From positions 1-36,240 of the forward strand of contig JAVHLZ010000024.1 in NCBI GenBank assembly GCA_031081675.1: a DNA stretch of 36,240 nucleotides, read 5' to 3'. Each line of letters starts with the position of its first letter. The first letter of the stretch is position 1. The DNA comes from Armatimonadota bacterium (GTDB lineage: Bacteria > Sysuimicrobiota > Sysuimicrobiia > Sysuimicrobiales > Kaftiobacteriaceae). The notes below the pieces were generated by a model. That model was given only the letters and a program-made list of their open reading frames with translations, made no database searches and had not been told where the DNA came from. The position numbers and the translations under genes are program-made. Positions 20,990 to 36,217 of this stretch are shown piece by piece.

Positions 20990-21002
20990 AGGCTCTCCCC
21001 GG

Positions 21003-21833
21003 TCAGGGGCCGCGGACCTGCAGACCGGTCTCCCCGGCCAGCAGCGCCGCGCCGCCGTAGTCCAGCACCGCCCGGACCGTGTACGCCCCCGGCGTGAGGG
21101 GAGTCGCCCACGTGGCCCGGAACTCCCGTGCCCCTCCCGGCAGGACCACCACGTCGGGCAGGACCACCTTGCCCGTCTGGTGGCCGGACGCGTCGAGGAG
21201 AACCACAAACCCCTGCACCCGCACGTGCACGTTCCCGGTATTTCTGAACAGCAGCCGCACCTCGGCGCCTGGAGGGCGCGCGACGGCCACCATCGACTGG
21301 ATGTCGGCGGAGACCAGCTCGGTCCCCCGCACCCGCACCAGCAGCCGGGAGGCCAGTTTGGGCACGACCACCGAGACCGTGCCGGTCACGCCGGTGGTCT
21401 GCAGCACCGGCGTGGGCGCCACCACCACAGCGCCGTAGCGGCCGCCACGGGCGTCGGGGGGCACGGTCACCGTCACCCGCACCGGCAGGGCGCGGTCGGG
21501 GTCCACGTCGAACTCCGCCGGCAGGACGCGGGTGAAGGAGGCCAGCGACCAGGCGGTGCTGCCCGGCCGCAGCACGTCCATGGTGCCGCTGGGGCGGATG
21601 GCGATGTCCTCCACGGACGCCCGAAAGCGCACCCGCCGGCCGGAGCGGTTGTAGACCACCACGATGCCGGTCGCGGTGCCGGCGGGGGCGGGGGCGAGTT
21701 CCACCTCCGGGGGACTGAGGCCGAAGGACAGGGGCTGGGCCTGGCCGGCCGCCGCCGCCGATACCAGGGCCAGGGCCGCGGCGGCCGCCGCGGCCCTGGG
21801 CAGAGTCCGTGGACGCCGGGGGGATCGCGTCAC
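21003..21833 (-). CDS. Secreted Ig-like chaperone-like protein
   Basis: A 276-aa protein with a signal peptide (Arg-rich start, Ala-rich core, about residues 1-32). Two beta-sandwich domains follow with the pattern PPEVELAPAPAGTATGIVVVYNRS and TVPPDARGGRYGAVVVAP. This pattern recurs in DUF916-type and pilus-chaperone-like periplasmic proteins. The C-terminal domain has LLFRNTGNVHVRVQG and ends in TPGAYTVRAVLDYGG. There is no C-terminal membrane helix, unlike Gram-positive DUF916 proteins. The GTG start has GGGAG 9 nt upstream, and the gene lies between the subunit-like gene (22-nt gap) and the barrel gene (13-nt gap). Chaperone function is inferred from fold pattern and position. Confidence 0.65.
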   Translation of the reverse strand: MTRSPRRPRTLPRAAAAAAALALVSAAAAGQAQPLSFGLSPPEVELAPAPAGTATGIVVVYNRSGRRVRFRASVEDIAIRPSGTMDVLRPGSTAWSLASFTRVLPAEFDVDPDRALPVRVTVTVPPDARGGRYGAVVVAPTPVLQTTGVTGTVSVVVPKLASRLLVRVRGTELVSADIQSMVAVARPPGAEVRLLFRNTGNVHVRVQGFVVLLDASGHQTGKVVLPDVVVLPGGAREFRATWATPLTPGAYTVRAVLDYGGAALLAGETGLQVRGP

Positions 21834-21855
21834 ACGCCGTCACTCCCTGTGAGCA

Positions 21856-22344
21856 TCAGGGCTGCACGCCCAGGTACTCCACGACGATGGTGTACGTCCC
21901 GGGGCTGTCCTGCCAGTCGATGCACTGCTGGTAGTCCACCGTCACATCCCGGTTGCCGGTCTTGGGCTGGTTTGTAAGGAAGAGATTGGCGTACGTGCTG
22001 GTGATGTCGGTGAACACCAGCACATCCCCGCCTTTGTACTGCAGCGGGTTCACCAGTTCGGTGCCTGAGCCGTCTTTGGCCTTCCCGTTGGGGTAGGTGA
22101 CCGGCTCCGACCGGATCTGCAGGTTCCAGGGCCTGTTGCTCTTGACGTTGACGGTGGTGGGCACGGTCCCGCAGGCTCCCGGGTCCGTGCTGGCAATCGA
22201 CGCCGACGCCGGGACCGTGACGTCGATGCGCGAGCCGGCGGCCACCGTCACCGTCTGGCTGCCGGAGGAGGCCCCGTAGCCGGCTCCGGCGGCGGCCACC
22301 ATGACGGCGGAGGCGAGGACGATCCTGATCAGTGCGGCTTTCAT
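21856..22344 (-). CDS. Secreted fibre-subunit-like protein
   Basis: A 162-aa protein with a clear signal peptide (MKAALIRIVLASAVMVAAAGAG, cleavage near residue 25). One beta-sandwich-like domain follows, starting VTVAAGSRIDVTVPA and ending with a GTYTIVVEYLG strand, as in spore-coat-U/Csu-type pilins and WxL-like proteins. Two cysteines (PGACGT and QQCID) could form one disulfide. The ATG has AAGGGG upstream. As first gene of the three-gene cluster it is the probable exported subunit. It is transcribed from an exact sigma-54 promoter at 22418-22432 with a palindrome just upstream. Fibre formation is inference. Confidence 0.65.
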   Translation of the reverse strand: MKAALIRIVLASAVMVAAAGAGYGASSGSQTVTVAAGSRIDVTVPASASIASTDPGACGTVPTTVNVKSNRPWNLQIRSEPVTYPNGKAKDGSGTELVNPLQYKGGDVLVFTDITSTYANLFLTNQPKTGNRDVTVDYQQCIDWQDSPGTYTIVVEYLGVQP

Positions 22345-22417
22345 TTCCAGCACCCCTTCCGTTCTAAGGAGAGTCACCCGCGCATGGTGCGGGCGGCTGA
22401 CGCCGTCCTCTGCATCA

Positions 22418-22432
22418 GCAAGATGCGTGCCA
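22418..22432 (-). promoter_or_regulatory. Sigma-54 promoter of the fibre-like cluster
   Basis: On the minus strand the sequence is TGGCACG-CATC-TTGCT, an exact match to the -24/-12 consensus with correct GG-to-GC spacing. Transcription would start near 22406, giving a ~61-nt leader to the ATG at 22344. Confidence 0.85.
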
Positions 22433-22443
22433 GACCGCTGGAG

Positions 22444-22469
22444 GTGTGCCCGCACACGTGCCCGCACAC
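22444..22469. promoter_or_regulatory. Palindromic activator-site candidate upstream of the sigma-54 promoter
   Basis: GTGCCCGCACAC is repeated in tandem (22446-22457, 22458-22469). The first copy with its flank is a perfect 6-2-6 palindrome GTGTGC-CC-GCACAC (22444-22457); the second is a partial palindrome. The sites lie 12-37 bp upstream of the -24 element, closer than most NtrC-type enhancer sites, so a repressor site is also possible. Confidence 0.5.
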
Positions 22470-22612
22470 CCCATCGCACTCCGGTGGAGCGTTCGCGGAA
22501 CATGTACCCGCGGGGCGGAACGGGTAGACGGGATCCCCCTCCGGGACCTTCCGGGAAGGATACGGGAGGCACAGGCCGCCCGTCGGCGATTTCTGCGATG
22601 ACGTGCAGGCCG

Positions 22613-23059
22613 TCAGGCCGCGTCGGGGTGTGCCCCGGTCGGAGGCGGCGGGGCGGCGGGCAGGTCTGCGCCGGAGGAGGTCTCGGGGGAAGGGCGGACG
22701 CCGAACTCTTCCCGCACCGCCCGGGCCAGGGCGTCGTGGTGGCGTAGCAGGGCCAGCCGCAGGGCGCCGGCCGAGGCCGCCGGGCCCACCAGAACGGCCA
22801 CCGCCGGCCCCGCGGGGGAAAGGACGACGGCGCGGGTTCCGTAGAGGATCGTCAGAGCCTCGACGGGTCCGAACCCGCCGCTGTCGCCCAGCCGCTCGCC
22901 GACCATGAGCCCGCTGGCGGCGTAGGCCGCCAGGGTCTCGGGGTCCACCTGGGGGTCGCCCGCGGTGTCGAGGACCAGGCCGTCCCCGGAGGACACCACG
23001 ACCCCCAGGGCGCCCGCGGCGCGCTTGATGTCCCACAGAATGGCGGAGAGCTTCTCCAT
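22613..23059 (-). CDS. Roadblock/LC7 domain protein (MglB-like)
   Basis: A 148-aa protein whose first ~115 residues match the Roadblock/LC7 fold: ILWDIKRAAGALGVVVSSGDGLVLD opens the domain and LTILYGTRAVVLSPAGPAVAVLVGP forms the central strands. The tail (about 118-148) is Pro/Ala-rich and probably disordered. Roadblock proteins in bacteria regulate small Ras-like GTPases such as MglA in polarity and motility; no GTPase gene is in the window. It lies 30 nt after fliA with only a weak ribosome site. A CCTTCC/GGAAGG hairpin at 22547-22559 may end the transcript. Confidence 0.82.
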   Translation of the reverse strand: MEKLSAILWDIKRAAGALGVVVSSGDGLVLDTAGDPQVDPETLAAYAASGLMVGERLGDSGGFGPVEALTILYGTRAVVLSPAGPAVAVLVGPAASAGALRLALLRHHDALARAVREEFGVRPSPETSSGADLPAAPPPPTGAHPDAA

Positions 23060-23089
23060 GTCGATCGGGCGGTCCGACGGCGCGCGCGG

Positions 23090-23881
23090 TCAGGCCACGA
23101 TCGGGCGCCCGGGGAGCGGGGCGGGCGCTCCGTCCATCCAGGACCGCAGGGCCAGGTGCGTCCGCAGCATGCCCAGCGCCTCCGCGCGCATCTGGCTGAC
23201 CCGGGATTCGGTCACCCCCAGCACGCGGCCGATCTCCGCCAGGGTCAGGCCCTCGCAGTAGTACAGCCCTACCACCAGCTTGTGCCGCGCCGGCAGGGCC
23301 TGGATGGCCCGCCACAGGGTCCGGTCCCTCTCCTGCCGCTCCATGCGGGCCAGAGTGTCGCCCCAGACGTCCCGGATCACACTGTCGGGCAGTTGGTCGG
23401 AGGAGGCGATCTCTTCCAGGGACAGCACCTGCCCGGCCGCGGCGTCGGCCCGGATGCGCTCCACCGCCGCCTCCTCCCACCCCGTGGCCGCGACCACTTC
23501 CCGCCCGGTGGGGGGCCGGCCCAGGGAGCGGGCCAGCGTCCTCGCCTGGGCCTGCAGGCGGTGGACGTGGCGGCGGGCCACCCGGGGGAGCAGGTCGAGG
23601 GTGCGCAGGTAGTCGTACATCGCTCCGCGGATGCGCAGCCGGGCGAACGCCTCAAACGGGATCCCCCGGTCGGGGTCGAACCGGTCGATGGCTTCCAGCA
23701 GGCCGATCATCCCGTAGCCTTCCAGGTCCTCGCTCTTCACCGACGCGGGCATCCGGACCGCCATCTGGCGCGCCAGCGCGCGCACCAGAGGCAGGTAGGC
23801 CAGCGCCAGCCGCTCCCGCAGATCCGGAGAGCGCCCGGAGCGAAACCGGCTCCACAGTTCCGACGTCGTCCCGTCCGCCAC
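23090..23881 (-). CDS. fliA: FliA/WhiG-family sigma factor (sigma-28)
   Basis: A 263-aa sigma-70-family factor of the FliA/WhiG group. Region 2 has VKSEDLEGYGMIGLLEAIDRFDP and FAPR-like FEAFARLRIRGAMYDYLR. Region 3 has RPPTGREVVAATGW and region 4 ends in LTLAEIGRVLGVTESRVSQM. The GTG start lies 3 nt after the stop of the GAF gene, with GAGGTG about 10 nt upstream. FliA directs late flagellar or chemotaxis genes in most bacteria; with FlaG- and FlgN-like genes nearby a motility role is plausible, though no flagellar structural gene is present here. Confidence 0.92.
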   Translation of the reverse strand: MADGTTSELWSRFRSGRSPDLRERLALAYLPLVRALARQMAVRMPASVKSEDLEGYGMIGLLEAIDRFDPDRGIPFEAFARLRIRGAMYDYLRTLDLLPRVARRHVHRLQAQARTLARSLGRPPTGREVVAATGWEEAAVERIRADAAAGQVLSLEEIASSDQLPDSVIRDVWGDTLARMERQERDRTLWRAIQALPARHKLVVGLYYCEGLTLAEIGRVLGVTESRVSQMRAEALGMLRTHLALRSWMDGAPAPLPGRPIVA

Positions 23882-24916: not shown

Positions 24917-24972
24917 CGTCGCCACTCCCTCTCGCAGCCGCCTGCGCGCGGCCGCTCCGGTGCGAAACGAGA

Positions 24973-24987
24973 GCAAGGCGCGTGCCG
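24973..24987 (-). promoter_or_regulatory. Sigma-54 promoter upstream of the GAF-fliA genes
   Basis: Minus strand CGGCACG-CGCC-TTGCT matches the -24/-12 consensus apart from C for the first T; GG-to-GC spacing is correct. The start would be near 24961, about 45 nt before the ATG at 24916. A GGGGAC/GTCCCC inverted repeat (25037-25042, 25053-25058) lies between it and the rpoN stop. Confidence 0.7.
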
Positions 24988-25110: not shown

Positions 25111-26472
25111 TCAGCGGATGCCGGCGGGACGGCCGCGGGCGGTGGACGGCGGGATGTGCATCTCCTCGCGGTACTTGGTCACCGTCCGGCGGGCGATGCG
25201 GATCCCCTCGGCCCCCAGGCGGCGCGCAATCTCCTCGTCGGTCAGGGGTCGGGTTTCGGACGCGATCAGGCTGCGGATGCGCTCCTTGATGGGCAGTGAC
25301 TGGTCGAAAAAGACCTCGAAGCTCACCACCTGGCCGCCGGGGAGCTGGGCGAACTTCCCGTCCAGCGCCCGACTGACGGTGGACTCGCTGATCCCCAGCT
25401 CCGCCGCCACCATGGCCTTGGTGAGGGGCCGCAGGTGGCCGGGGCCGCGCTCCAGGAACTCCCACTGGGCGCGCACGATGGCCTGCACGATGCTGGCAAA
25501 GGTCCAGTTGCGGCGCTGCAGGGCCTCGATGAACATCTTGGCCCGGCTCACGTAGTCCCGCACGTGCTCCCGGGAGCGGTCCGAGTAGGCTGCCGACGCC
25601 CGGCGCATCTGCCGGCGCAGGTCCTCGTAGAAGGCGTTGACCCGGAGGGCGAAGGCGTCCTGGCGGACCAGCTCCACCGCCCATCCCTCATCGGTGCGGC
25701 GGATGATCACATCGGGACGGGCTACCTCCGCCGGGCGGGTGCGGCCGCCGTCCTGCTCGTTGCGGAATCTCTCGCCGGGATAGGGGTAGCAGGTGGACCG
25801 CACCAGCTCGTGGGCTTCGCGGACCTGGGCCGCGGTCACCCCCAGGTCCCGGGCGATCTTCTCGAAACGGTGGGCGGCCAGGTCGGCCAGGTGGGAGGCG
25901 ACAATCTGCTGGGCCAAGCGGTTGGCCGGGGAGGGCTCCTGGACCCGCAACTGCAGCAGCAGGCACTCCTCGACGTTCCGGGCGCCCACCCCCACGGGCT
26001 CGAAGCGCTGGATGCGCGCCAGGACCGCCTCCACCTCCTCCACCTCGACGTTCAACTCCTGGGCCACCTGAGCCGGGGTGGCCTCCAGGTAGCCGTTGTC
26101 GTTGATGTAGCCGATCAGCCGTTCGCCGATGGCGTGGTCCCGCGCCGACAGTCCCTGGGCCTGCAGAACCATCAGCAGGTGCTCCTGCAGGGATACGGGG
26201 GCGACCACCCGGGCAAACGGATCGTCGTCGCCGTCGTCGGGGGTCCACTCGGTGAGGGACGGCCCGAGCTCGTCGGGGCCGGGCAGGTCCGCCGGCGCCT
26301 GCTCATCCAGCTCCAGGGCGGGGTTTTCGGCCAGCTCCTGCTCGATCCGCGCCAGGAGCTGGTTGATGGGCAGCACCAGCAGGGAGTTGACCAGCATGAG
26401 CTTGGGCACCATGCGCTGGTGCAGCGCGGGCGTGACGCCGACGGTGGCCTGCAGGCGGGGCTCGGCGGACAC
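25111..26472 (-). CDS. rpoN: RNA polymerase sigma-54 factor
   Basis: A 453-aa sigma-54. The N-terminal activator-interacting region has LMLVNSLLVLPINQLLARI and ELAENPALE. An acidic linker (about 55-85) and the core-binding region follow. The C-terminal DNA-binding domain has the HTH GISESTVSRALDGKFAQLP and the RpoN box ARRTVTKYREEMHIPP near the end. The GTG start lies 14 nt after the HD-GYP stop, with GAGAGG just upstream. Its presence beside an NtrC-type activator and five local -24/-12 promoters suggests that this locus is a main sigma-54 regulon of the organism. Confidence 0.97.
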   Translation of the reverse strand: MSAEPRLQATVGVTPALHQRMVPKLMLVNSLLVLPINQLLARIEQELAENPALELDEQAPADLPGPDELGPSLTEWTPDDGDDDPFARVVAPVSLQEHLLMVLQAQGLSARDHAIGERLIGYINDNGYLEATPAQVAQELNVEVEEVEAVLARIQRFEPVGVGARNVEECLLLQLRVQEPSPANRLAQQIVASHLADLAAHRFEKIARDLGVTAAQVREAHELVRSTCYPYPGERFRNEQDGGRTRPAEVARPDVIIRRTDEGWAVELVRQDAFALRVNAFYEDLRRQMRRASAAYSDRSREHVRDYVSRAKMFIEALQRRNWTFASIVQAIVRAQWEFLERGPGHLRPLTKAMVAAELGISESTVSRALDGKFAQLPGGQVVSFEVFFDQSLPIKERIRSLIASETRPLTDEEIARRLGAEGIRIARRTVTKYREEMHIPPSTARGRPAGIR

Positions 26473-27944: not shown

Positions 27945-27980
27945 CGCCCACCTCCGCCCGTCCGGGGGGAGGACACCGGA

Positions 27981-27995
27981 GCAATTTTCGTGCCA
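27981..27995 (-). promoter_or_regulatory. Sigma-54 promoter of the HD-GYP-rpoN genes
   Basis: Minus strand TGGCACG-AAAA-TTGCT is an exact -24/-12 match. Transcription would begin near 27969, ~25 nt before the ATG at 27944. rpoN is the next gene, so sigma-54 may activate its own synthesis. Confidence 0.85.
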
Positions 27996-28033: not shown

Positions 28034-29413
28034 TCAGCCGGCTTCGGCGCTCAGGTGGTGGTCGCGGATCTTGCTGTCCAGGACGGCGCGATCGATCTCC
28101 AGGACCCGGGCGGCCTCATCGAGATTCCACCCCGTCATCTTCAGAACGGCGTGGATGTGGCGCCGCTCGGCCTCGGCCAGGGACAGCGCGCGGGGGAAGC
28201 GGGTGCCGTGCTGGGACTGCTCGTCCAGCCAGATGTCATCGGCTCCGATGACCTCGCTGGTGGCCAGGATGACCACCCGCTGGATGGTGTACTCCAGCTC
28301 CCGGACGTTGCCCGGCCAGTCGTGGTCCCGCAGTTTCTTGAGGGCTGCCGGGGTGAACCCCTTGATCCGCTTGCCGAAGGCCACGGCGTACTTGTTGAGG
28401 AAGTGGTAGGCCAGGGGCTGGATGTCCTCCCGGCGCTCCCGCAGAGGAGGCAGCTCGATGGGCATCACCGCCAGCCGGTAGTACAGGTCCTCCCGGAACT
28501 GCCCCTCGGCAATGGCCTTCCGCAGGTCCTTGTTGGTGGCGGCGATGACCCGGGCGTTCACGTCAATGGGGCGACTCCCCCCCACCCGCTCGATCACCCG
28601 CTCCTGCAGGACGCGCAGCAACTTCACCTGCATCGCCGGGCTCATGTCGCCGATTTCGTCGAGGAAAATGGTGCCGTCCTGCGCGCGCTCGAAGCGCCCG
28701 ATCCGGCTGCTCACAGCGCTGGTGAATGCGCCCTTCTCGTGCCCGAACAGCTCGGTCTCCAACAACGTCTCGGGGATCGCGCCGCAGTTGACCACCACGA
28801 AGGGCCCGTGGGCCCGCGGGCTCTGCGAGTGGATGGACCGGGCCAGCAGTTCCTTGCCGGTGCCCGTTTCCCCATAGATGAGGACGGTGGCATCGGTGGG
28901 CGCCACCGCCGCCGCCAGCCGGAGGACTTCCCGCATGCGCGGGGAGTTGCCCACGATGCCCTCGAACTTGAAGGTGCGGACCAGCTCCTGCTGGAGGGCA
29001 CGGTTCTGCCGCAGGAGGCGGGCGCGCTCCAGGGCCTTGTGCACCACGATCATGAGTTCCTCGGGCCGGAAGGGCTTGGCCACATAGTGGTAGGCGCCCA
29101 GCTTGATGGCCTGGATGGCGGTATCGATGGTGGAAAACGCCGTGATGACGATGACCAGGGCTTCGGGGTCGTGCTCCATCATCGCCCGCAGGACGCTCAT
29201 GCCATCGATCTTGGGCAATTTGAGGTCCAGCACGACGAGGTCGAAGCGGCCGGACCGGAACCGGTCCAGCCCCTCCTGGCCGTCCACGGCGGTCTCCACC
29301 GAATAGCCCTCGTCCCGCAGGATCTTGGCCAGCAGGGTCCGCAGGTGCTCCTCGTCGTCAACGACGAGGATGGAGATGTCGGGGGGCTGCGAGGAGTCGG
29401 CGGCGAGCGTCAT
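28034..29413 (-). CDS. NtrC-family sigma-54-dependent response regulator
   Basis: A 459-aa activator: receiver (about 14-125; D63 in [14 protein letters not shown] in KPFRPEEL), AAA+ domain (about 150-385) with Walker A GETGTGKE, the sigma-54-contacting loop GAFTSA (consensus GAFTGA), Walker [12 protein letters not shown] and R-finger region FREDLYYRL, then a Fis-type HTH ([26 protein letters not shown]...). It opens sigma-54 promoters by ATP hydrolysis and is the likely activator of the five -24/-12 sites here. No cognate kinase is adjacent; the histidine kinase at 31215 is the nearest. The ATG is preceded by TATAAT at only 8 nt and has no clear Shine-Dalgarno, so the mRNA may be leaderless. 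Confidence 0.95.
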
Positions 29414-29427: not shown

Positions 29428-29574
29428 CCTCGGCCCCGCGCGCCCTAGACGCCGCACGACAGACGTCCCCGCCGCGGGGGCCGGCGCGGCCGGCGTCGCA
29501 GCGTCCCCCCTGAGGTTCGCCTGCACCCGATTCCGCGCCGGGTCCGCCGGCGGCGGGGACTGGGCGTTCGACGT

Positions 29575-29898
29575 CTACCGGTGGCCGCGTCCCGGGGAGC
29601 GCATCAGCGCCGCCGGGGGAACGTCCCGCACCGGATGTCCGGTGCGCGGGTCGCGCACCCGGATGACGGGCTGGCGGGTGGCCTCGTCCACCTCGAGGGT
29701 GATCGCCAGGACACCCGCGCGGTCCGCGCGTGCGGCGCCGGGGGCGGCCTCCCCCGGGTCCTCTGCCCTGCCGGGAAGGCGGCCGGTCAGCGCCCGGCGC
29801 GCCCGCTCCATCAGGGCCACCAGCTCCGCGGGGACATCCGGCCCGACTCCGGTTGTGGCCGACGCCCCGGCGTGCGCGGACGGTGTGTCCGGTGCCAT
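29575..29898 (-). CDS. FlaG-like protein
   Basis: A 107-aa protein with a variable Ala/Pro-rich N-terminus and a conserved C-terminal ~45 residues: LAITLEVDEATRQPVIRVRDPRTGHPVRDVPPAALM matches the FlaG pattern (F-x-V-x-E-x-T-x-x-x-x-V-x-V-x-D-x-x-T-G-E-V-I-R-x-I-P). FlaG genes usually lie in flagellar operons and affect filament length. I chose the ATG at 29898 with GAGG 8 nt upstream; an ATG two codons earlier is too close to it. It begins 10 nt after the FlgN-like gene and shares its sigma-54 promoter. Confidence 0.75.
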   Translation of the reverse strand: MAPDTPSAHAGASATTGVGPDVPAELVALMERARRALTGRLPGRAEDPGEAAPGAARADRAGVLAITLEVDEATRQPVIRVRDPRTGHPVRDVPPAALMRSPGRGHR

Positions 29899-29908
29899 CA
29901 CCATCGCC

Positions 29909-30265
29909 TCAATTCAGCCGGGCAGACCGGGCGGCGCGGTCCGGGGATGGCACCAGGTGGCTCAGCCATGCTCCCTGACCCGCCCGCTCCACCTCGGCCA
30001 GAAGGCGCACCAGGGCCCCCATCTCCCGCCGCAGCCGGGATGCTCCGGGCCCGCCGGTTCCGACGCCAGCCAGCCGGCTGCGCTGGCGCTCCAGGTCCCG
30101 CACGGCCACGATGCACGCCGCCTCGGCCACCGCCAGGTCGGCCGCTTCCGCGTACTTCCCCTGGCGCAGAAGCAGGTGGCGCTGGCGCGCCAGGCGCACC
30201 AGCTCCCGGTGTACGGCCACCTCCTGCTCCAGAATCCTTCGCAGATCGTCGCTTCCTGTCGCCAC
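29909..30265 (-). CDS. FlgN-like helical protein (putative flagellar chaperone)
   Basis: A 118-aa almost all-helical protein: LRRILEQEVAVHRELVRLARQR, then a KYAEAADLAVAEAACIVAVRDLERQRSRL hairpin. This layout is typical of FlgN, the export chaperone for hook-associated proteins FlgK/FlgL; sequence similarity is weak, so other helical proteins are possible. The GTG at 30265 is preceded by GGGGTG. The frame stays open further upstream, but the sigma-54 promoter at 30316-30330 places the transcript start near 30304 and excludes most of that extension. It is followed by the FlaG-like gene. Confidence 0.6.
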   Translation of the reverse strand: MATGSDDLRRILEQEVAVHRELVRLARQRHLLLRQGKYAEAADLAVAEAACIVAVRDLERQRSRLAGVGTGGPGASRLRREMGALVRLLAEVERAGQGAWLSHLVPSPDRAARSARLN

Positions 30266-30315
30266 AGCGCACCCCGATTGATCGCCCCGCGGGAGATGCC
30301 CCGCCGGCACTGGAA

Positions 30316-30330
30316 GCAACCGCTGTGCCA
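30316..30330 (-). promoter_or_regulatory. Sigma-54 promoter of the FlgN-like/FlaG-like genes
   Basis: Minus strand TGGCAC-AGCGG-TTGCT matches the -24/-12 consensus with correct spacing. Start near 30304, ~39 nt before the GTG at 30265. The palindrome TGTC-G-GACA at 30341-30349 lies 11 bp upstream. Confidence 0.8.
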
Positions 30331-30467
30331 CAGGGTGGTCTGTCGGACACTTAACTTTGTGGACCCGGTGACGATACACCAGTATGGGGAGTAGCCCGAA
30401 CACTCCAGGGCGTCGCCGCGACGTCCAAACAATGGTACGAACGCCGACGGCGGCGCGGCGGAGCCGA

Positions 30468-30496
30468 TTGACAGTGGTGGGAGGCTGTGGTACAGT
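30468..30496 (+). promoter_or_regulatory. Sigma-70 promoter of GATWE peptide 1
   Basis: A perfect TTGACA (30468-30473), a 17-nt spacer and TACAGT (30491-30496). The start would be near 30503, giving a ~97-nt leader. Confidence 0.75.
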
Positions 30497-30504
30497 CAGC
30501 GCGC

Positions 30505-30595
30505 CGTCTGCCGGAGACCGGGTTCATCCGTGCGTGCTGGCCTCGATGTGTCAGCCCGGCGCGGACCCGCGTCTATCCTCAGACGTAGGGGAGTG
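30505..30595 (+). other. Foldable leader RNA of GATWE peptide 1
   Basis: Three nested stems are possible: CGTCTG (30505-30510) with CAGACG (30580-30585); CGGGTTC (30519-30525) with GGACCCG (30563-30569, one G-U); and GCTGG (30536-30540) with TCAGC (30551-30555). The outer stem ends just before the AGGGGAG ribosome site, so folding could influence translation. It matches no riboswitch class that I know. Confidence 0.4.
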
Positions 30596-30599
30596 AGCC

Positions 30600-30743
30600 A
30601 TGAAGAAGGTCCTGGCTGCGATTGTGTTCCTGCTCCTGATGGCCGTCGGCACCTCCGTGTCGTGGGGAGGCGCCACCTGGGAGGGCGCCACGTGGGAGGG
30701 CGCGACCTGGGAAGGGTTTGACGCCTTCGGCGTGTGGGAGTAG
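30600..30743 (+). CDS. Secreted GATWE-repeat peptide 1 (47 aa)
   Basis: A tiny gene encoding 47 aa. Residues 1-21 form a textbook signal peptide (MKKVLAAIVFLLLMAVGTSVS), with Ser at -3/-1 of a site before WGG. The mature ~26-residue part is three tandem GATWE units (GATWEGATWEGATWE) followed by GFDAFGVWE. It holds five Trp, four Glu and no Lys, Arg or Cys. The ATG has GGGGAG 7 nt upstream and a sigma-70 promoter about 100 nt before it; an intrinsic terminator follows. A paralogue with the same signal/repeat/GVWE plan lies 218 nt downstream. I do not recognise the family. Trp-containing five-residue repeats occur at the C-termini of some S8 peptidases, but no peptidase domain is here. Secretion is well supported; function is unknown. 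Confidence 0.85.
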   Translation: MKKVLAAIVFLLLMAVGTSVSWGGATWEGATWEGATWEGFDAFGVWE

Positions 30744-30770
30744 GCGCCGGCGGCATCCGGCCGGTGGTGC

Positions 30771-30825
30771 GGCGGGGGAAGGCAGCTTCCCCCGCCGTTG
30801 CTTTTGGGGGCTTTTGGCCCCCCCA
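30771..30825 (+). terminator. Intrinsic terminator after GATWE peptide 1
   Basis: GGCGGGGGAA (30771-30780) pairs perfectly with 30787-30796 around a 6-nt loop, followed by TTTT at 30802-30805. A second hairpin, GGGGGC/GCCCCC (from 30806), follows immediately and overlaps a second TTTT. Together they should insulate the second peptide gene. Confidence 0.75.
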
Positions 30826-30858
30826 CCTGGGGCATAAGCCTCTGCGGGCGAGGCCGGG

Positions 30859-30895
30859 GCGTCCCCCACACAGAGATTCGCTCCAGCGGGGACGC
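30859..30895. promoter_or_regulatory. Inverted repeat just upstream of sigma-54 promoter
   Basis: GCGTCCCC (30859-30866) and GGGGACGC (30888-30895) form a perfect 8-bp inverted repeat with a 21-nt interval, ending 2 nt before the -24 element. It may be an activator-binding element or a hairpin; CACAG/CTGTG (30869-30873, 30895-30899) could pair across it. Confidence 0.35.
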
Positions 30896-30897
30896 TG

Positions 30898-30912
30898 TGG
30901 CACGGAAATTGC
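30898..30912 (+). promoter_or_regulatory. Sigma-54 promoter of GATWE peptide 2 and kinase
   Basis: Plus strand TGGCACG-GAAA-TTGCT is an exact -24/-12 match. Start near 30924, ~38 nt before the ATG at 30962. The kinase and receiver genes follow on the same strand without an obvious terminator. Confidence 0.85.
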
Positions 30913-30961
30913 TCCATCTAGGCCAGCAGAAGGAGTTCCGCCCGATGGGGAGGGAGAGAAG

Positions 30962-31111
30962 ATGCGCAGGTGGATCGTGGCTGTCCTGATGGCCGTGGCG
31001 GTCGTGTGCGCCGCCTCGTCGGTGTCCTGGGGGCGGGGAGCCACCTGGGAGGGAGCGACCTGGGAAGGTGCCACCTGGAAGTCGGGAGCGTCCGTCGGGG
31101 TGTGGGAGTAG
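30962..31111 (+). CDS. Secreted GATWE-repeat peptide 2 (49 aa)
   Basis: A 49-aa paralogue of peptide 1. The signal peptide is MRRWIVAVLMAVAVVCAASS, with the same SVSWG junction. The mature part is WGRGATWEGATWEGATWK, then SGASVGVWE, so the three-repeat core and the GVWE end are conserved while the residues between them differ. Codons of the repeats differ from those of peptide 1, which argues for selection on the protein. AGGGAG lies 8 nt before the ATG. An open frame extends upstream to 30734 but contains the terminator and promoter elements, so I reject it. Expression is from a sigma-54 promoter, unlike peptide 1. The histidine kinase starts 103 nt downstream. Signal, structural or RiPP-like roles are all possible. 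Confidence 0.85.
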   Translation: MRRWIVAVLMAVAVVCAASSVSWGRGATWEGATWEGATWKSGASVGVWE

Positions 31112-31214
31112 TCGGCCAGACCCTGCCGAAGGTCGTCACGGTCACGCAGGCCAGCCCGGCGCCCGCCTCAGGTCGGCGGGCCCGGGCTGAGCCGCGTCTG
31201 GCTGGAGCCGGCCG

Positions 31215-33167
31215 ATGAGACATCTGCCTGTGCCGGCGCGCCTGTACGTCGGGGGGGTGATCGCCGCCGGGGCCGCCCTGGCCCTGGTCGTCCCCCGGCT
31301 GCCGGGAGCCGCCCCGCGCCTGGATCCCGCATTCGGCATCTTCGTGGTGGCGGCGCTGCTCACGCAACTGGTGGGCGTGCGCGTCATCATGCCGGGCCGG
31401 GAGGGGATGGCCTGGTCGCTGATCGACGCCGTCATCGTCGCCACCATCCTGCTGTTCCCTCCCGGCAACATCGTGGTCCTGGTCCTGATCACGTTCACCG
31501 CCTACTGGATCAAGCGGCGGGAACTGCCCTGGTACCAGGGGGCATTCAACATCGCCCAGCACGTCCTGTCGGTGTGCGCCGCGGAGGCGGTGTGGCTGCT
31601 GGCGCGCCCCGCCGACGGCGGCGGCGCGCTGGCCCTGCGCTGGTACGCGGGGGCGTTTGCGGCCGGCGGGACGTTCTACCTGGTCAACGGTGCCCTGGTC
31701 ACCCTGGCCATCGCCCTGGCTGCCGGCCGCCCGCCGCTGCAGGTGGGGGTGATCTCCCGCCACAGCTTCTACCGGGAGATGGTCCTGGTCTGGATGGGCG
31801 CCGTGGTGGCCGACTTCTGGCTGGTCAATCCGTGGCGGACCGTCCTGCTGGCCCTCCCCCTGGCGGGCCTGTCCAAGATGCTGCGGATCCAGATCGAGGA
31901 CGCCGAGCGCATCCGCCGCAGCCAGCAGGATGCGGAAGCCCGCGCCCAGCAGCTGGCCAGCCTCAACGAGCTGGCCCAGGCCCTCACCAGCAGCCTGGAC
32001 CTGGACCAGGTCTACCAGGCCCTGTACGCCCAGGTCCGCAAGATTCCCGGAGTGGACGTCGTCGGCGTCGGGGTGCTGGACGCCGCCACCCAGCGCCTGG
32101 AGTTCGGGCTGTGGCGCACCGCGGATCGCGCCTTCTCCCCCTACAGCCGCAGCGCCGCCGACTCGCCGTTCCGCGAGCTGCTCGCGATCCGCGGACCGCA
32201 GGTCTACCGTCGGCCTGAGGACGAGGACCGGATCCGCCAGCTGGCGTGGTACGGGCCACTGCTGCAGGACGCGGTGGTGGTGGTCATCCCCCTGGCGGTG
32301 GGCGAGCGGGTCGTGGGGCTGGTGATTGTGGGCGCCCGGCAGGACCTGACTCCTCCGGACGTGGACCTGCTGTCCACCATGGCCAGTCAGGCGGCGGTGG
32401 CCATGGAGAAGGCGCAGCTGTTCGCCAACCTGCAGCGGCAGATGGCCATGCTGGAGCAGACCCAGTTCCAGCTCATGCAGTCGGCCAAACTGGCCACCAT
32501 CGGCGAGCTGGCGGCCTTCGTGGCTCACGAGATCAACAACCCCCTGACCAGCGTCCTGGGCTACGCCTCCCTGATCCTCAGCGAGACGCCCCCCGAGGAC
32601 CCCCGCCGGGCCGACCTGGAGGTCATCGAAAAGGAGGCCCTGCGGGCGAGGGCCATCGTGCGGGACCTGCTGGGCTACGCCCGCCAGACCGACGCCGCCA
32701 TGGAGCAGACCCATGTCAACGACGCCATCCAGGCGGTCCTGCCCCTGATCCGCCGGCGGGCCGAGTCCCAGAACGTGCAGATCGCAGCCCGGCTGGACCC
32801 GGACGTCCCTCCCATTCTGGGCGATGTCAACCAGCTCAAGCAGGTCTTCATCAACATCCTCAACAATGCCATCGACGCCATGCCCCACGGCGGCCAGGTG
32901 GAGATCATCACCCGCCAGGTGAGCGGGAACGGCAGCGGTCCCCAGGTGGAGATCACGTTCCAGGACACGGGGGTCGGCATCCCGCCCGAGAAGCTGGACC
33001 GTATCTTCGACCCCTTCTTCACCACCAAGGAGAACGGCAAGGGCACCGGGCTGGGGCTGCCCATCAGCAAGAGGATCGTGGAGCGCCACGGGGGCACCAT
33101 CGCCGTGGACAGCACCCTGGGACAGGGCACGCGGTTCACCATCTACCTGCCGGTGGCCGCGCCGTGA
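31215..33167 (+). CDS. Multi-pass membrane GAF histidine kinase
   Basis: A 650-aa sensor kinase. Residues 1-222 contain about six or seven hydrophobic segments with short loops, a membrane-embedded input region without a large extracellular domain. A short coiled coil (about 222-262), a GAF domain (about 255-400), a HisKA domain with phospho-acceptor H438 (FVAHEINNPLTSVLGY) and an HATPase domain (N box INILNNAIDAM, DTGVGIPPEK, GTGLGLPIS) follow. This input type is compatible with sensing a small, membrane-near ligand, as for peptide-sensing AgrC/ComD kinases, but those have a different kinase family. The ATG has GGAG 8 nt upstream. The stop codon overlaps the receiver gene start (GTGA). Confidence 0.93.
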   Translation: MRHLPVPARLYVGGVIAAGAALALVVPRLPGAAPRLDPAFGIFVVAALLTQLVGVRVIMPGREGMAWSLIDAVIVATILLFPPGNIVVLVLITFTAYWIKRRELPWYQGAFNIAQHVLSVCAAEAVWLLARPADGGGALALRWYAGAFAAGGTFYLVNGALVTLAIALAAGRPPLQVGVISRHSFYREMVLVWMGAVVADFWLVNPWRTVLLALPLAGLSKMLRIQIEDAERIRRSQQDAEARAQQLASLNELAQALTSSLDLDQVYQALYAQVRKIPGVDVVGVGVLDAATQRLEFGLWRTADRAFSPYSRSAADSPFRELLAIRGPQVYRRPEDEDRIRQLAWYGPLLQDAVVVVIPLAVGERVVGLVIVGARQDLTPPDVDLLSTMASQAAVAMEKAQLFANLQRQMAMLEQTQFQLMQSAKLATIGELAAFVAHEINNPLTSVLGYASLILSETPPEDPRRADLEVIEKEALRARAIVRDLLGYARQTDAAMEQTHVNDAIQAVLPLIRRRAESQNVQIAARLDPDVPPILGDVNQLKQVFINILNNAIDAMPHGGQVEIITRQVSGNGSGPQVEITFQDTGVGIPPEKLDRIFDPFFTTKENGKGTGLGLPISKRIVERHGGTIAVDSTLGQGTRFTIYLPVAAP

Positions 33168-33559
33168 CCCAGACCGCCCTCCCGCAGGTGCGCGCCGCCC
33201 GGATCCTCGTCATCGACGACGAGGCCCCCATCCGCGACCTGTGCGCCCGCGTCCTCGCCCGCGCGGGCTACCAAGTGACCAGCGCCGGCAGCGGCGAGGA
33301 AGGCCTGGCCCGCCTGGGCGAGGAACCCGTGGACCTGATCGTCACCGACATCCGCATGCCCGGGCTGTCGGGGCTGGACGTCCTCGAGCGCGCCAAGGCG
33401 GCCTTCCCCGGCGTGCGGGTCATCCTGATCACCGGGTTCGGCACGCCCCAGACCCTGGCCCGGGCCGAGCAGGCGGGAGCCGACCGGATCCTCACCAAGC
33501 CCTTCAATCCCGCCGAGCTGGTGGCGGCGGTGCGCGAGATCCTCGCCCCGGCCGGGTGA
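33164..33559 (+). CDS. Stand-alone receiver-domain response regulator
   Basis: A 131-aa protein made of one receiver domain: acidic pocket DDE near residues 18-20, phospho-acceptor D62 in LIVTDIRMPGLSG, Thr in ILITGFG, Lys in LTKPFNPAEL. There is no output domain. Its GTG start overlaps the kinase stop codon, so it is surely its partner. It resembles the receiver of the HD-GYP regulator (IRDLCARVL and TDIRMPG-SGLD shared). It may relay phosphate or act by protein contact, in CheY/Spo0F style. Confidence 0.93.
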   Translation: MTQTALPQVRAARILVIDDEAPIRDLCARVLARAGYQVTSAGSGEEGLARLGEEPVDLIVTDIRMPGLSGLDVLERAKAAFPGVRVILITGFGTPQTLARAEQAGADRILTKPFNPAELVAAVREILAPAG

Positions 33560-33606: not shown

Positions 33607-34497
33607 GTGACGGCGTTTGCCGCGTTGCGCGATTTCTTCTCCCGGGAACGGGAGGTGGCTGCCGTCTACCTCTACGGCACCTACGCCGATGAGCGCACCT
33701 GGCCCGACAGCGATATCGAGATCGCCCTGCTGTTCCCCGAGCCCGCCGACGAGCAGGCCATCGACGACTACCTGGAACGCCTGGCCGGCGCCAATCCCCT
33801 GCAGGACGCGCCGGGCATCCTGATGCCCTTCGCGCTCAACACCCACGTCCTGCCGGTCATCTACGAGATCCTGGCCAGCGCCCACCCGCTGGTGGTGCAC
33901 GATCCCGCGGCGGTGCGCGCGTTTGCGGCCCGCGCCGGGGCGCGGGTGGAACAGGAGCGGGCCGCAATGCTCCAGGACGCCCGGGACGCCATCGTTCAGG
34001 CCCGGGCCCTGGGCGCCACCGACGCGGCGCCGCGCCTGGCCCGGCCCGCCCGCCCGCTGGATCCCCTGCGCATCGGGTGGCGGCTGGCCCGGATCCTCAC
34101 CGCGGCCGCAGTCCTGGAGCCGGCGACGCGGGATGCCGGAGAGGCCGGCGAGGATCCCGACCAGCTGGGACACATCATCGGGTGGTTCAGCAACGCCGCG
34201 GGAGCCGCCACCGGCATCGCCAAGGCCGCGCTCAGCCTGTGGGAGATCCCGCGGCCCAGCCGGCGCTGGCAGGTGTTCCTGCCCCTGGCGGATGCCGGGG
34301 CAATCACCACCGAACTGGCCCTGCAGCTGGGGGCGGTGGTGGAGGCGCGATGGCAGCTGCTGACCCGGAGCGGGCTGGCGGACCCGGAGCGTATCGCCGC
34401 CTCCGTCCGGGCCGCGTTGGCGCCCCTGCTGACCTTTGCCCGGCTGGCGGCCTGGTACTGCGACCTGCCCGGAGGCTCTGAGCAGCGGGTGCACTGA
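33607..34497 (+). CDS. MNT-type nucleotidyltransferase domain protein
   Basis: A 296-aa protein. The N-terminal ~140 residues are a minimal-nucleotidyltransferase fold: LYGTYADERTWPDSDIEIALLF fits the GSxA-x(7-9)-SD-x-(D/E) signature, with Glu in place of the second usual Asp, followed by FALNTHVLPVIYEILASAHPLVV. The C-terminal ~150 residues are helical (RIGWRLARILTAAAVLEP...HIIGWFSNAAGAATGIAKAALSLWE) and could be a fused helical partner domain; I see no R-x4-6-H HEPN motif, so a classical MntA/HepT toxin-antitoxin fusion is not supported. The GTG start has GGAGG too close upstream to be a good ribosome site, so the start is uncertain. It follows the receiver gene by 47 nt. Confidence 0.7.
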   Translation: MTAFAALRDFFSREREVAAVYLYGTYADERTWPDSDIEIALLFPEPADEQAIDDYLERLAGANPLQDAPGILMPFALNTHVLPVIYEILASAHPLVVHDPAAVRAFAARAGARVEQERAAMLQDARDAIVQARALGATDAAPRLARPARPLDPLRIGWRLARILTAAAVLEPATRDAGEAGEDPDQLGHIIGWFSNAAGAATGIAKAALSLWEIPRPSRRWQVFLPLADAGAITTELALQLGAVVEARWQLLTRSGLADPERIAASVRAALAPLLTFARLAAWYCDLPGGSEQRVH

Positions 34498-34538: not shown

Positions 34539-34925
34539 TCAGCGCTCCAGCGTCAGAACCCCGTCCTCGAGCAGCCGCGCGACCATGGCGGCGCGGGACC
34601 CGACTCCCAGGCGGTGGTAGATCCGGCGCAGATGCGTGGCCACCGTCCACGCGCTGATGGAGAGGGCCGCGGCAATCGCCTTGGTCGGCAGGCCCCGGGC
34701 CACCAATGCCGCGATCTGCCGCTCGCGGGGGCTGAGGGTGACGCCCGCCGGGGCGGGCGTGATCCGCGAGAGGACGTACCGCGACCCGTCCACCTCCACC
34801 TCGCACAGGACTTCCACCGTCCCCCCGCCCGCCCGCACTTTTCGGAGGGGACGATCCGGGGCCAGCGGGACCAGCGACCGCACCCGCCGGGGCAGATCGT
34901 CCACCGCAGGTCCGCGGCCTGCCAT
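34539..34925 (-). CDS. LuxR-type HTH protein
   Basis: A 128-aa protein. The C-terminal ~65 residues are a LuxR/GerE HTH: LSPRERQIAALVARGLPTKAIAAALSISAWTVATHLRRIYHRLGV is close to the family pattern. The N-terminal ~60 residues contain a short beta-rich segment (VEVLCEVEVDGSRYVLSRI) of unknown role and no receiver domain. The start ATG overlaps the stop codon of the XRE-TPR gene (TGATG) and has GGGAGG 8 nt upstream, so the two are translationally coupled. It probably binds DNA downstream of the XRE-TPR sensor in one regulatory unit. Confidence 0.88.
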   Translation of the reverse strand: MAGRGPAVDDLPRRVRSLVPLAPDRPLRKVRAGGGTVEVLCEVEVDGSRYVLSRITPAPAGVTLSPRERQIAALVARGLPTKAIAAALSISAWTVATHLRRIYHRLGVGSRAAMVARLLEDGVLTLER

Positions 34926-36217
34926 CACCGCGCCTCCCGGCGCTCCCGGGCCGCCGGAGCCGGTCCTTGAAAGGCGCGGGCGAACCACTCGGCGGCCTGT
35001 TCGCGCCGCCCATCCCGCATCAGGACAAAGCCCAGGTCGCGGCAGATCCGGCGATACTCGCCGTCCATCTGGAGTCTTGCGAACGCCTCCGCGGCCTCCT
35101 GGTAGCGGCGGACCGCCTCCTCCACCTGGCCCTGCGCGGCCAGGGCGTCCGCCTCGGCGGCCAGCGCTCTCGCCTGTTCGGCGGGATCGTCCATCCGGGC
35201 GGCCAGGTCCCGGGCTTCCGCCGCGGATCGGCGGGCGGCCTCGGGCTCGCCCGCCCGGGCGTGCAGGCGGGCCAGCTCCACCAGGGTCTGCGCCACCCCC
35301 TCATCGTCCCCGCTCTGCCGGGCCAGGCGCAGGCTGTCCTCCAGGGCCGCCCGGGCCCGCTCCAGGTGCCCCTGCTCCAGCAGCAGCATCCCCACGCTCC
35401 GCCGCACCGCGCCCAGCAGGCGGACGTTCTCGTGCAGGGTGAACAGGTGGGCAGCCCGGTCCAGATAGTCCCGCGCCTGCTCGAAGTTCTGCTGCCGCTC
35501 GCAGGCGATGCCCAGGTTGAAGTACAGCAGTCCCAGATGGTACGGGTCGGCCGCCGGGTCCAGCACATCGGCGGCCTGGCGGAAGAACTCCTCAGCCTGG
35601 ACGGGCAGCCCCAGTTCCAGATAGGCCCGGCCAAGGTTGGCCAGAAGCTTGCCGTACACGTCGGTCCGGGTGTGGCCGGATCGCCGCAGGGTGTCCACAG
35701 CCCCCTGCAGGATCTCCCGGGCGAGGGCGAACCGGCGGGCCCGCAGCGCCGCGAACCCCAGGGCGTTGGCCGCGGCCGCCATCAGGTCCACGTCGCCCAG
35801 CGCCTCGGCCAGGGTCGCGGCCTTGCGGAGGTGGCGGGCGGCCTCCCGGAACCGCCGCAGGCCGGCGTACGCCTGACCCACTCCCAGGGCCCGGCGCGCC
35901 CGCAGGGCCGCGGACTCGAGCGACCTTTCCGGAATCCGGGCCAGGACGTCCCGCGCCTCGGCGAAGCGGTGCTGGCGCAGCAAGCCCTCTCCCAGGCGCA
36001 CCTGTAGCTCGACCGCCTCGGCGGGGTCGTCGTCCAGCAGTGCCCGCACCGGAACTCCCAGGCGTCGCGCCAGCACCCGCAACGTCTTCAGGGACGGCCG
36101 CACCCGGTCGTGCTCCACCATGCTGATCAGGCTCACCGACAGGGTGCCTCCCGCGAGGTCCCGCAGGGTCATCCCCCGCCGCCGGCGCGCCTCCCGGATC
36201 CTCTGCCCCAGGCTCAC
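34925..36217 (-). CDS. XRE-HTH / TPR regulator
   Basis: A 430-aa protein: N-terminal XRE-type HTH (about 1-62; LGQRIREARRRRGMTLRDLAG...SLISMVEHDRVRPSLKTL) followed by a long array of tetratricopeptide-like helical hairpins (about 70-420), with repeats such as ALGVGQAYAGLRRFREAARHL and LLYFNLGIACERQQNFEQARDYL. This HTH-TPR layout is that of RRNPP-type intracellular peptide receptors (Rgg, PlcR, AimR) and of many sporulation or stress regulators; ligand binding is not shown. The GTG start has GGAGG about 8 nt upstream. The upstream region runs out of the window 23 nt later. Confidence 0.9.
   Translation of the reverse strand: MSLGQRIREARRRRGMTLRDLAGGTLSVSLISMVEHDRVRPSLKTLRVLARRLGVPVRALLDDDPAEAVELQVRLGEGLLRQHRFAEARDVLARIPERSLESAALRARRALGVGQAYAGLRRFREAARHLRKAATLAEALGDVDLMAAAANALGFAALRARRFALAREILQGAVDTLRRSGHTRTDVYGKLLANLGRAYLELGLPVQAEEFFRQAADVLDPAADPYHLGLLYFNLGIACERQQNFEQARDYLDRAAHLFTLHENVRLLGAVRRSVGMLLLEQGHLERARAALEDSLRLARQSGDDEGVAQTLVELARLHARAGEPEAARRSAAEARDLAARMDDPAEQARALAAEADALAAQGQVEEAVRRYQEAAEAFARLQMDGEYRRICRDLGFVLMRDGRREQAAEWFARAFQGPAPAARERREAR

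Follow-up and report, generated by a model that had tools for sequence, protein, structure and literature searches.

Results

The window analyzed here is one whole contig (C24) of 36,240 nucleotides; this 36-kb contig makes up 1.6% of the 2.29-Mb, 97.8% complete genome to which it belongs (G000). On its forward strand lie two short peptide genes (peptide 1, 30600-30743, 47 amino acids; peptide 2, 30962-31111, 49 amino acids), a sensor kinase gene (31215-33167) and, adjoining the latter, a gene for a single-domain response regulator (33164-33559). The opposite strand carries an island of genes encoding a FlgN-like protein, a FlaG-like protein, a sigma-54 activator (28034-29413), a receiver-GAF-HD-GYP protein, RpoN (sigma-54; 25111-26472), a GAF-GGDEF protein, a sigma-28 factor of the FliA/WhiG family (23090-23881), and a roadblock protein.

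The two peptides are paralogues (53% identity), as an earlier note on this DNA had proposed, and they share one design: basic residues at the start, then a hydrophobic segment, the invariant motif SVSWG, and A-T-W-E-G repeats that finish in G-V-W-E. In peptide 1 the signal-like N terminus is combined with WGGATWEGATWEGATWEGFDAFGVWE. Both the signal-like segment and the SVSWG motif are conserved across the family, for which Pfam and NCBIfam returned no match and solved structures gave a best PDB profile match at an E value of 0.026. We defined the mature part by a cut at SVS-W, a cleavage site read from the sequence by eye; so delimited, it would span 24 to 35 residues, with 4 to 5 tryptophans and a net charge of -1 to -7. 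The Trp repeats mostly follow W-E-x-x-T with a period of 5, and a period of 8 occurs in one relative (G006).

To place the locus, we compared 43 genomes of the phylum, 10 from the family of the window and 33 from outside it. A profile built from the 2 peptides, and then from 17, found the peptide family in 8 of the 43, comprising 8/10 genomes within the family and 0/33 beyond; the restriction to one family is thus a statement about these 43 phylum genomes. The 17 peptide genes are distributed as two copies each in G000, G001, G004, G007, and G008, three copies in G005 and G006, and a single copy in G009. An orthologue of the kinase (E ≤ 1e-100) occurs in precisely the same eight genomes, and in these the peptide genes and the kinase gene are always adjacent. 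Neither peptides nor kinase were found in G002 and G003, which belong to the family of the window and are assembled in 180 and 270 contigs. A kinase-based scan of the genome contigs yielded 80 loci, from which loci L032 to L037 were used. With one peptide as the query, a plasmid search returned no match, nor did a search of viral contigs for the peptide. No description of the peptide or of the island was found in the literature searched, and "not in print" holds within that search.

The earlier note assigned the two genes to different sigma factors. Upstream of peptide 1 we found a sigma-70-type promoter on the forward strand (30468-30496; TTGACA-17-TACAGT, 10/12 against TTGACA/TATAAT at a spacing of 16 to 18, with an extended -10), the sole match on either strand of 29500-32500 (shuffle mean, 0.2). 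In 8/8 genomes the first copy is preceded by a sigma-70 match of 8 to 10 out of 12, which starts at -88 to -144 and bears a TGTGN extended -10. Taken singly these matches are mostly weak, being equalled in 0 to 24 of 200 shuffles, so that their support comes from the conserved place and the TGTGN element. At the same first copies the sigma-54 score is at chance level (7 to 8 out of 12 in 8/8 genomes).

Peptide 1 may have a second promoter. The consensus for sigma-28 promoters is TAAAGTTT-N11-GCCGATAA, with GCCGATAG as the -10 element, and GCCGATAG or a close form of it lies upstream of the sigma-70 site in first copies. In the window a sigma-28 (FliA/WhiG)-like site on the forward strand (30351-30377; TTAACTTT-N11-GACGATAC) agrees with 12/16 consensus positions (2/200 shuffles); 90 bases separate its end from the sigma-70 hexamer downstream. 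Scored against this general consensus, G000, G001, G007, G008, and G009 reach 12 to 14 out of 16 (0 to 5 of 200 shuffles), and the scores of 9, 10, and 11 in G004, G005, and G006 (124, 53, and 23 of 200 shuffles) are not convincing; the site is convincing in three of four genera. A strict pattern run over 10 genomes matched twice, at the window site and at the orthologous site of G001, and its reversed control also matched twice, elsewhere. Because these two sites served to define the pattern, the scan shows their uniqueness and is not an independent discovery. Between the sigma-28-like and sigma-70 sites, an unoriented AACANNGGTACGAAC element (30428-30442), read by eye in 4/8 genomes (G000, G004, G005, and G006), may be an activator-binding site. 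It lies ~100 bases upstream of a divergent sigma-54 site (30315-30330), a plausible position for such a role.

The 5' leader of peptide 1 contains an element, aligned over eight genomes, of the form GRAGACC ... G(G/C)GTCTATC (30513-30577, forward strand). All eight genomes have the pair, the spacer varying widely in length (about 6 to 60 bases), and the consensus stem has 7 pairs, of which AGACC/GGTCT is almost invariant and one pair is broken in G000. Across the eight genomes no pair changes on both sides, so covariation neither supports nor refutes the stem; six leaders folded individually had z scores of -0.1 to -2.2, and an Rfam search of 29800-31800 gave no match at E ≤ 1. Beyond the gene, the terminator that had been claimed for peptide 1 is present on the forward strand (30769-30825) as a 13-pair stem (30769-30798) followed by TTGCTTTT, with a second hairpin extending to about 30825. 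The stretch holding both hairpins (30741-30830) folds with a z score of -3.1. The number of terminators in 29500-32500, one against 0.4 in shuffles, does not by itself exceed chance; a GC-rich, terminator-like hairpin lies 3' of the first copy in 7/7 multicopy genomes, with z scores of -2.9 to -4.4 and differing stem sequences.

Peptide 2 is preceded by the exact sigma-54 promoter that had been reported for it (30898-30913, forward strand; TGGCACG-GAAA-TTGCT, 12/12, with the GG-N10-GC spacing of -24/-12 elements). All last copies in the multicopy genomes (7/7) have a sigma-54 site of 11 to 12 out of 12 at -60 to -67, a score reached in 0/200 dinucleotide shuffles each. Sigma-54 scores for the two middle copies are 9 and 10 (14 and 3 of 200 shuffles), and one last copy (P3 of G006) additionally has a 9/12 sigma-70 match (7/200 shuffles). 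Loose counting is unconvincing: when two mismatches are allowed, sigma-54 matches are about as frequent in shuffles (4.4) as in the window (5). The exact form is convincing: TGGCAC-N5-TTGCW has seven sites genome-wide, four of them in this contig, and the reversed-pattern control has none. With sigma-54 at the last copy and a hairpin and sigma-70 at the first copy in the relatives, the arrangement is a conserved property of the locus, and the proposed split into a basal and a conditional gene is well supported at the DNA level, being kept in 7/7 multicopy genomes.

The further claim that peptide 2 runs into the kinase genes needs qualification. The kinase gene lies downstream, and read-through into it is likely, but possibly attenuated, given the strong GC-rich hairpin between the two genes (31154-31187, forward strand), which has no T run in the window. 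The intergenic stretch folds with a z score of -4.1 in the window and of -0.7 to -6.0 over the eight genomes.

The single peptide gene of G009 (locus L034, 7175-7321) has no sigma-54 site. It looks like the upstream half of copy 1 fused to the downstream flank of copy 2, a recombinant reading suggested by downstream bases that resemble those of copy 2 in G008. An assembly collapse is also possible.

Within a genome, the first and last copies are far more alike in their mature parts than in their signal parts (identity, 0.87 versus 0.56 over seven genomes, split at SVSW). Between genera, mature parts are 0.51 to 0.52 identical and signal parts 0.58 to 0.60, and within a genus the signal parts of first copies are 0.85 identical. 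At the codon level, identical mature codons number 27/29 in G004, 23/25 in P1/P2 of G006, 23/26 in G008, and 20/26 in G007, with fewer in G001 (15/23) and in P1/P3 of G005 (15/24). In the signal parts of the same copy pairs, only 5 to 10 of 16 to 22 codons are identical. The window genome uses different codons for 9/19 identical mature residues. Gene conversion of the mature segment would produce such a pattern, with an older event in G000. Because the homogenization is largely at the codon level in several genomes, it is no proof of selection on a signal; its consequence is a nearly uniform peptide from genes under different control.

The sensor kinase combines an S-component-like membrane domain with GAF, HisKA (PF00512, 7.1e-14), and HATPase_c (2.3e-32) domains; HATPase_c_5 fell under its cutoff. 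Its frame is 658 amino acids in the window versus 770 to 813 in relatives. The best NCBIfam resemblance of its catalytic part is AtoS, and that of the receiver-AAA-Fis activator, which is AtoC/NtrC-like, is AtoC, both far under the curated cutoffs. This activator is the genome's only strong sigma-54 activator, with 248.8 bits to PF00158 against 20 to 51 for the other five matches. Kinase and activator are putative partners. No processing or export gene was recognized among the neighbors scanned beside the kinase and the peptides.

AlphaFold2, run on seven orthologues of the sensor, predicts eight long helices (pLDDT 77). Foldseek returned nothing at E ≤ 0.001. On VIA-align realignment, ranks 1 to 9 were all ECF S-component entries (Z, 7.7 to 13.0) and the next row scored 6.6; two of the nine are titled transition metal transporter (Z, 12.8 to 13.0), followed by CbiM (11.8), RibU (11.3), PanT (10.1), and ThiT (9.8). 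Subject to the caution due to helical bundles, the modeled domain looks like an S-component fold. No peptide receptor was among the matches of the fold search, an absence that carries no evidential weight. Sensor kinases with an S-component fold are known, and the named-ligand examples in the account of PMC11109136 sense pyruvate. With this fold and pyruvate as the named ligand, peptide sensing by the kinase becomes less likely, yet possible.

The island holds the genome's only RpoN, and its FliA/WhiG-family factor scores 223 bits against TIGR02479 (cutoff, 190). The FlgN-like (E, 2.2e-5) and FlaG-like (0.014) assignments are both under the cutoff; FlgN-like frames could be read by eye in all six relatives examined for them (G001, G004, G005, G007, G008, and G009). 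Of ten intervals scanned for domains in the island, five (25691-26248, 22377-23480, 20971-21843, 18759-20600, and the long form of 21859-22572) were judged to be in a wrong frame or too long, and for two of these the correct frames were scanned as well. From the activator to the roadblock gene, the order is kept in relatives as far as their contigs extend.

Further sigma-54 sites lie on the reverse strand of the island. The site before the FlgN-like gene (30315-30330) recurs at 11 to 12 out of 12 in G006, G007, and G008 and is weaker in L034 and L035, and the site before the HD-GYP/RpoN run (27980-27995) has a counterpart at the matching place in G001, G004, G005, G006, G008, and G009. A sigma-54-like site (24972-24987; 11/12) precedes the GAF-GGDEF gene, 124 bases past the RpoN stop, and recurs at 11 to 12 out of 12 between the same two genes in G001, G004, G007, G008, and G009. 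The GGDEF cyclic di-GMP enzyme thus probably has its own sigma-54 promoter; since its frame as listed overlaps RpoN and the site lies past the RpoN stop, the gene probably starts later. The fourth site (22417-22432) precedes an operon of exported-protein genes (21856-22344 and 21003-21833) and is likewise present in G007 and G008.

This operon spans 18590-22344 on the reverse strand and encodes a 162-amino-acid exported protein, a 276-amino-acid protein, and a large SdrD_B/amine-oxidase-domain protein. It has no meaningful Pfam name and could be a surface fiber system. A chaperone-usher-like fiber was considered and found unsupported, the single-sequence model of the putative chaperone (21006-21833) having a pLDDT of 40.5. 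Exported-protein genes occur in the island of G005, G007, and G008 and were not found in the 3.4 kb past the roadblock gene of G004.

On the other side, an HTH-TPR regulator gene (34925-36217, reverse strand) and a gene for a LuxR-type HTH protein (34539-34925) lie beside the island in 5/7 kinase-bearing relatives as well as in G000; the contig ends in G005, and the HTH-TPR gene was not found in the G001 stretch. By architecture only, the HTH-TPR protein is a candidate cytoplasmic peptide receptor; no RRNPP structure was among its sequence matches. A nucleotidyltransferase (33607-34497) with weak, under-cutoff MntA/HepT-like matches is also kept beside the island, and the same kind of gene occurs near NtrC-RpoN genes in G034, G039, and G042.

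A flagellar apparatus does not accompany this sigma factor set, as flagellin and FlhA were each found in 0/10 genomes of the family. Flagellin is present in 8 of the 43 phylum genomes, all from other families, in agreement with PMC11604079, which reports that two of five families have flagellar genes. The best local matches of the window's RpoN to copies from other families that accompany an NtrC-type gene and a nucleotidyltransferase give 54% identity for G034, 50% for G039, and 48% for G042; a further G039 copy, whose contig carries flagellin, gives 43%. G041 has flagellin too, on a contig different from that of its sole RpoN, and this RpoN (51% identity) has an activator and an HD-GYP gene nearby. 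On the question of whether the island is a relic of a flagellar cluster, the evidence is mixed.

Discussion

The arrangement described above is best explained, with a probability that we put at roughly 45%, as a two-speed source of one exported Trp-repeat peptide, the inducible gene of which sits in a positive loop with the kinase and the activator. Under this explanation, the housekeeping polymerase would give a basal, monocistronic transcript of peptide 1 that ends at the terminator, with the local sigma-28 factor perhaps raising its level. Peptide 2 would stay silent until the sigma-54 activator of the island is switched on, and its transcript would also carry the kinase and the receiver protein, probably attenuated by the hairpin. 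The kinase would most likely phosphorylate the adjacent AtoC-like activator, closing a positive loop on peptide 2 and on the kinase itself, and the activator would also turn on the HD-GYP/RpoN run, the GGDEF gene, the FlgN-like gene, and the exported-protein operon. Both peptide genes would deliver nearly the same mature product outside the inner membrane, where it would most likely serve as a signal or co-ligand read by the kinase/activator system.

The earlier note had seen in the pair a logic suited to feedback. In favor of this, the sole RpoN and the sole strong activator lie in the same island, together with an AtoS-/AtoC-like pair (below the curated cutoffs). The picture that it drew was incomplete, copy 1 having a possible second, sigma-28-like promoter. 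The two mature products are also nearly identical, which points to two rates of one product rather than to two different peptides. Against the two-speed explanation stand the single-domain receiver next to the kinase, which is an alternative kinase partner, and the likeness of the membrane domain to a small-molecule-binding S-component fold rather than to a known peptide receptor. So do the lack of a recognized processing or export gene among the neighbors scanned, the single copy of G009, which lacks a sigma-54 site, and the genomes G002 and G003, which lack peptides and kinase.

Several other explanations merit weighing against it. The strongest, a serious though somewhat less probable rival, is that the peptides are structural, an acidic Trp-repeat material of the cell surface or matrix, produced constantly in small amounts and abundantly once the sigma-54 regulon, with its exported proteins and cyclic di-GMP enzymes, is on; the several copies would serve dosage. 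Two to three tandem copies with homogenized mature parts, simple Trp repeats of negative net charge, the additional sigma-54 site before the exported-protein operon, and the HD-GYP and GGDEF enzymes of the island would all fit such a material. Its closest constant partner is, however, a sensor kinase and not an assembly gene, and the exported-protein genes are absent from the G004 stretch examined, have no family name, and gave a poor model in the one case modeled. We favor a signal over surface material, and only slightly.

It is improbable that the short genes are regulatory leaders, that is, a Trp-codon attenuator or a secretion-arrest peptide with no function outside the cell. The hairpins after first and last copies, the repeated Trp codons, and the hydrophobic N terminus recall such leaders, but copy 1 has promoters of its own and a terminator at its end, the signal-like segment and SVSWG are conserved, and the same mature part stands behind different promoters. 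A precursor of an antimicrobial or modified (RiPP-like) peptide, as a small gene with a Trp-rich repeated core and paralogues might suggest, is a shade less probable again, in that no modification, protease, exporter, or immunity gene was recognized among the neighbors scanned and the peptides match neither NCBIfam nor Pfam. Least credible of all is that GC-rich DNA produced the promoter matches by chance. The weak single sigma-70 matches of several relatives and the shuffle-level count of the two-mismatch pattern would allow it; a sigma-54 site at -60 to -67 of the last copy in every multicopy genome, and never at the first copy, speaks against it.

No library searched here names the peptide family. 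As for the wiring, it is a variation on known themes. Genes of the phr type have an extra promoter for an alternative sigma factor. The Rap-Phr and other RRNPP(A) systems of Bacillota, as described in PMC11343458, rely on short pro-peptides that are exported, and duplication has in some cases given rise to several pheromones. Small, predicted-exported pro-peptides are likewise found here, with the HTH-TPR gene about 4 kb off. The adjacent constant partner is, however, a membrane kinase, which separates the peptides from that gene; the mature part is 24 to 35 residues long if cut at SVS-W, and the phylum is other than Bacillota. Peptide receptors of the AgrC/ComD type have an HPK10-type catalytic part instead of HisKA, and by that usual definition the window kinase, with its HisKA-type part, falls outside the group. 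Its membrane domain resembles in fold those of the 5TMR/LytS-type and KinB kinases as PMC11109136 presents them, but PF07694 was not among its Pfam matches up to an E value of 0.1, and it couples the domain to GAF, HisKA, and an AtoS-like catalytic part. In NCBIfam, the two-component systems AtoS-AtoC, ZraS-ZraR, and NtrB-NtrC, which drive sigma-54 promoters, rank among those that kinase and activator resemble best, below the curated cutoffs; here, in contrast, the two genes belong to divergent units with the peptide genes between them. The co-occurrence in one island of RpoN, a receiver-AAA-Fis activator, FliA, and weak FlgN-/FlaG-like genes is reminiscent of flagellar sigma-54/sigma-28 cascades, from which the family differs in the 0/10 counts for flagellin and FlhA.

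A bolder version of the signal interpretation is that the locus encodes a new extracellular signaling system of an uncultured lineage, in which a secreted Trp-repeat peptide acts through an S-component-fold kinase on a sigma-54 amplifier of its own, and this amplifier runs a sigma-54/sigma-28 cascade devoted to a surface program instead of a flagellum. In such a system, gene conversion would preserve near identity of the peptide across two or three genes under different control. We regard this version as unlikely as a whole.

Sigma factors of the flagellar type have stayed side by side here in a lineage that has neither flagellin nor FlhA, and the locus supplies a definite peptide that can be tested, in a phylum with no signaling system described in the literature searched. 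If the two-speed explanation is true, the locus would also be a clear-cut natural example in which a basal gene and an inducible gene, the latter tied to a sensor kinase, supply a single secreted product.
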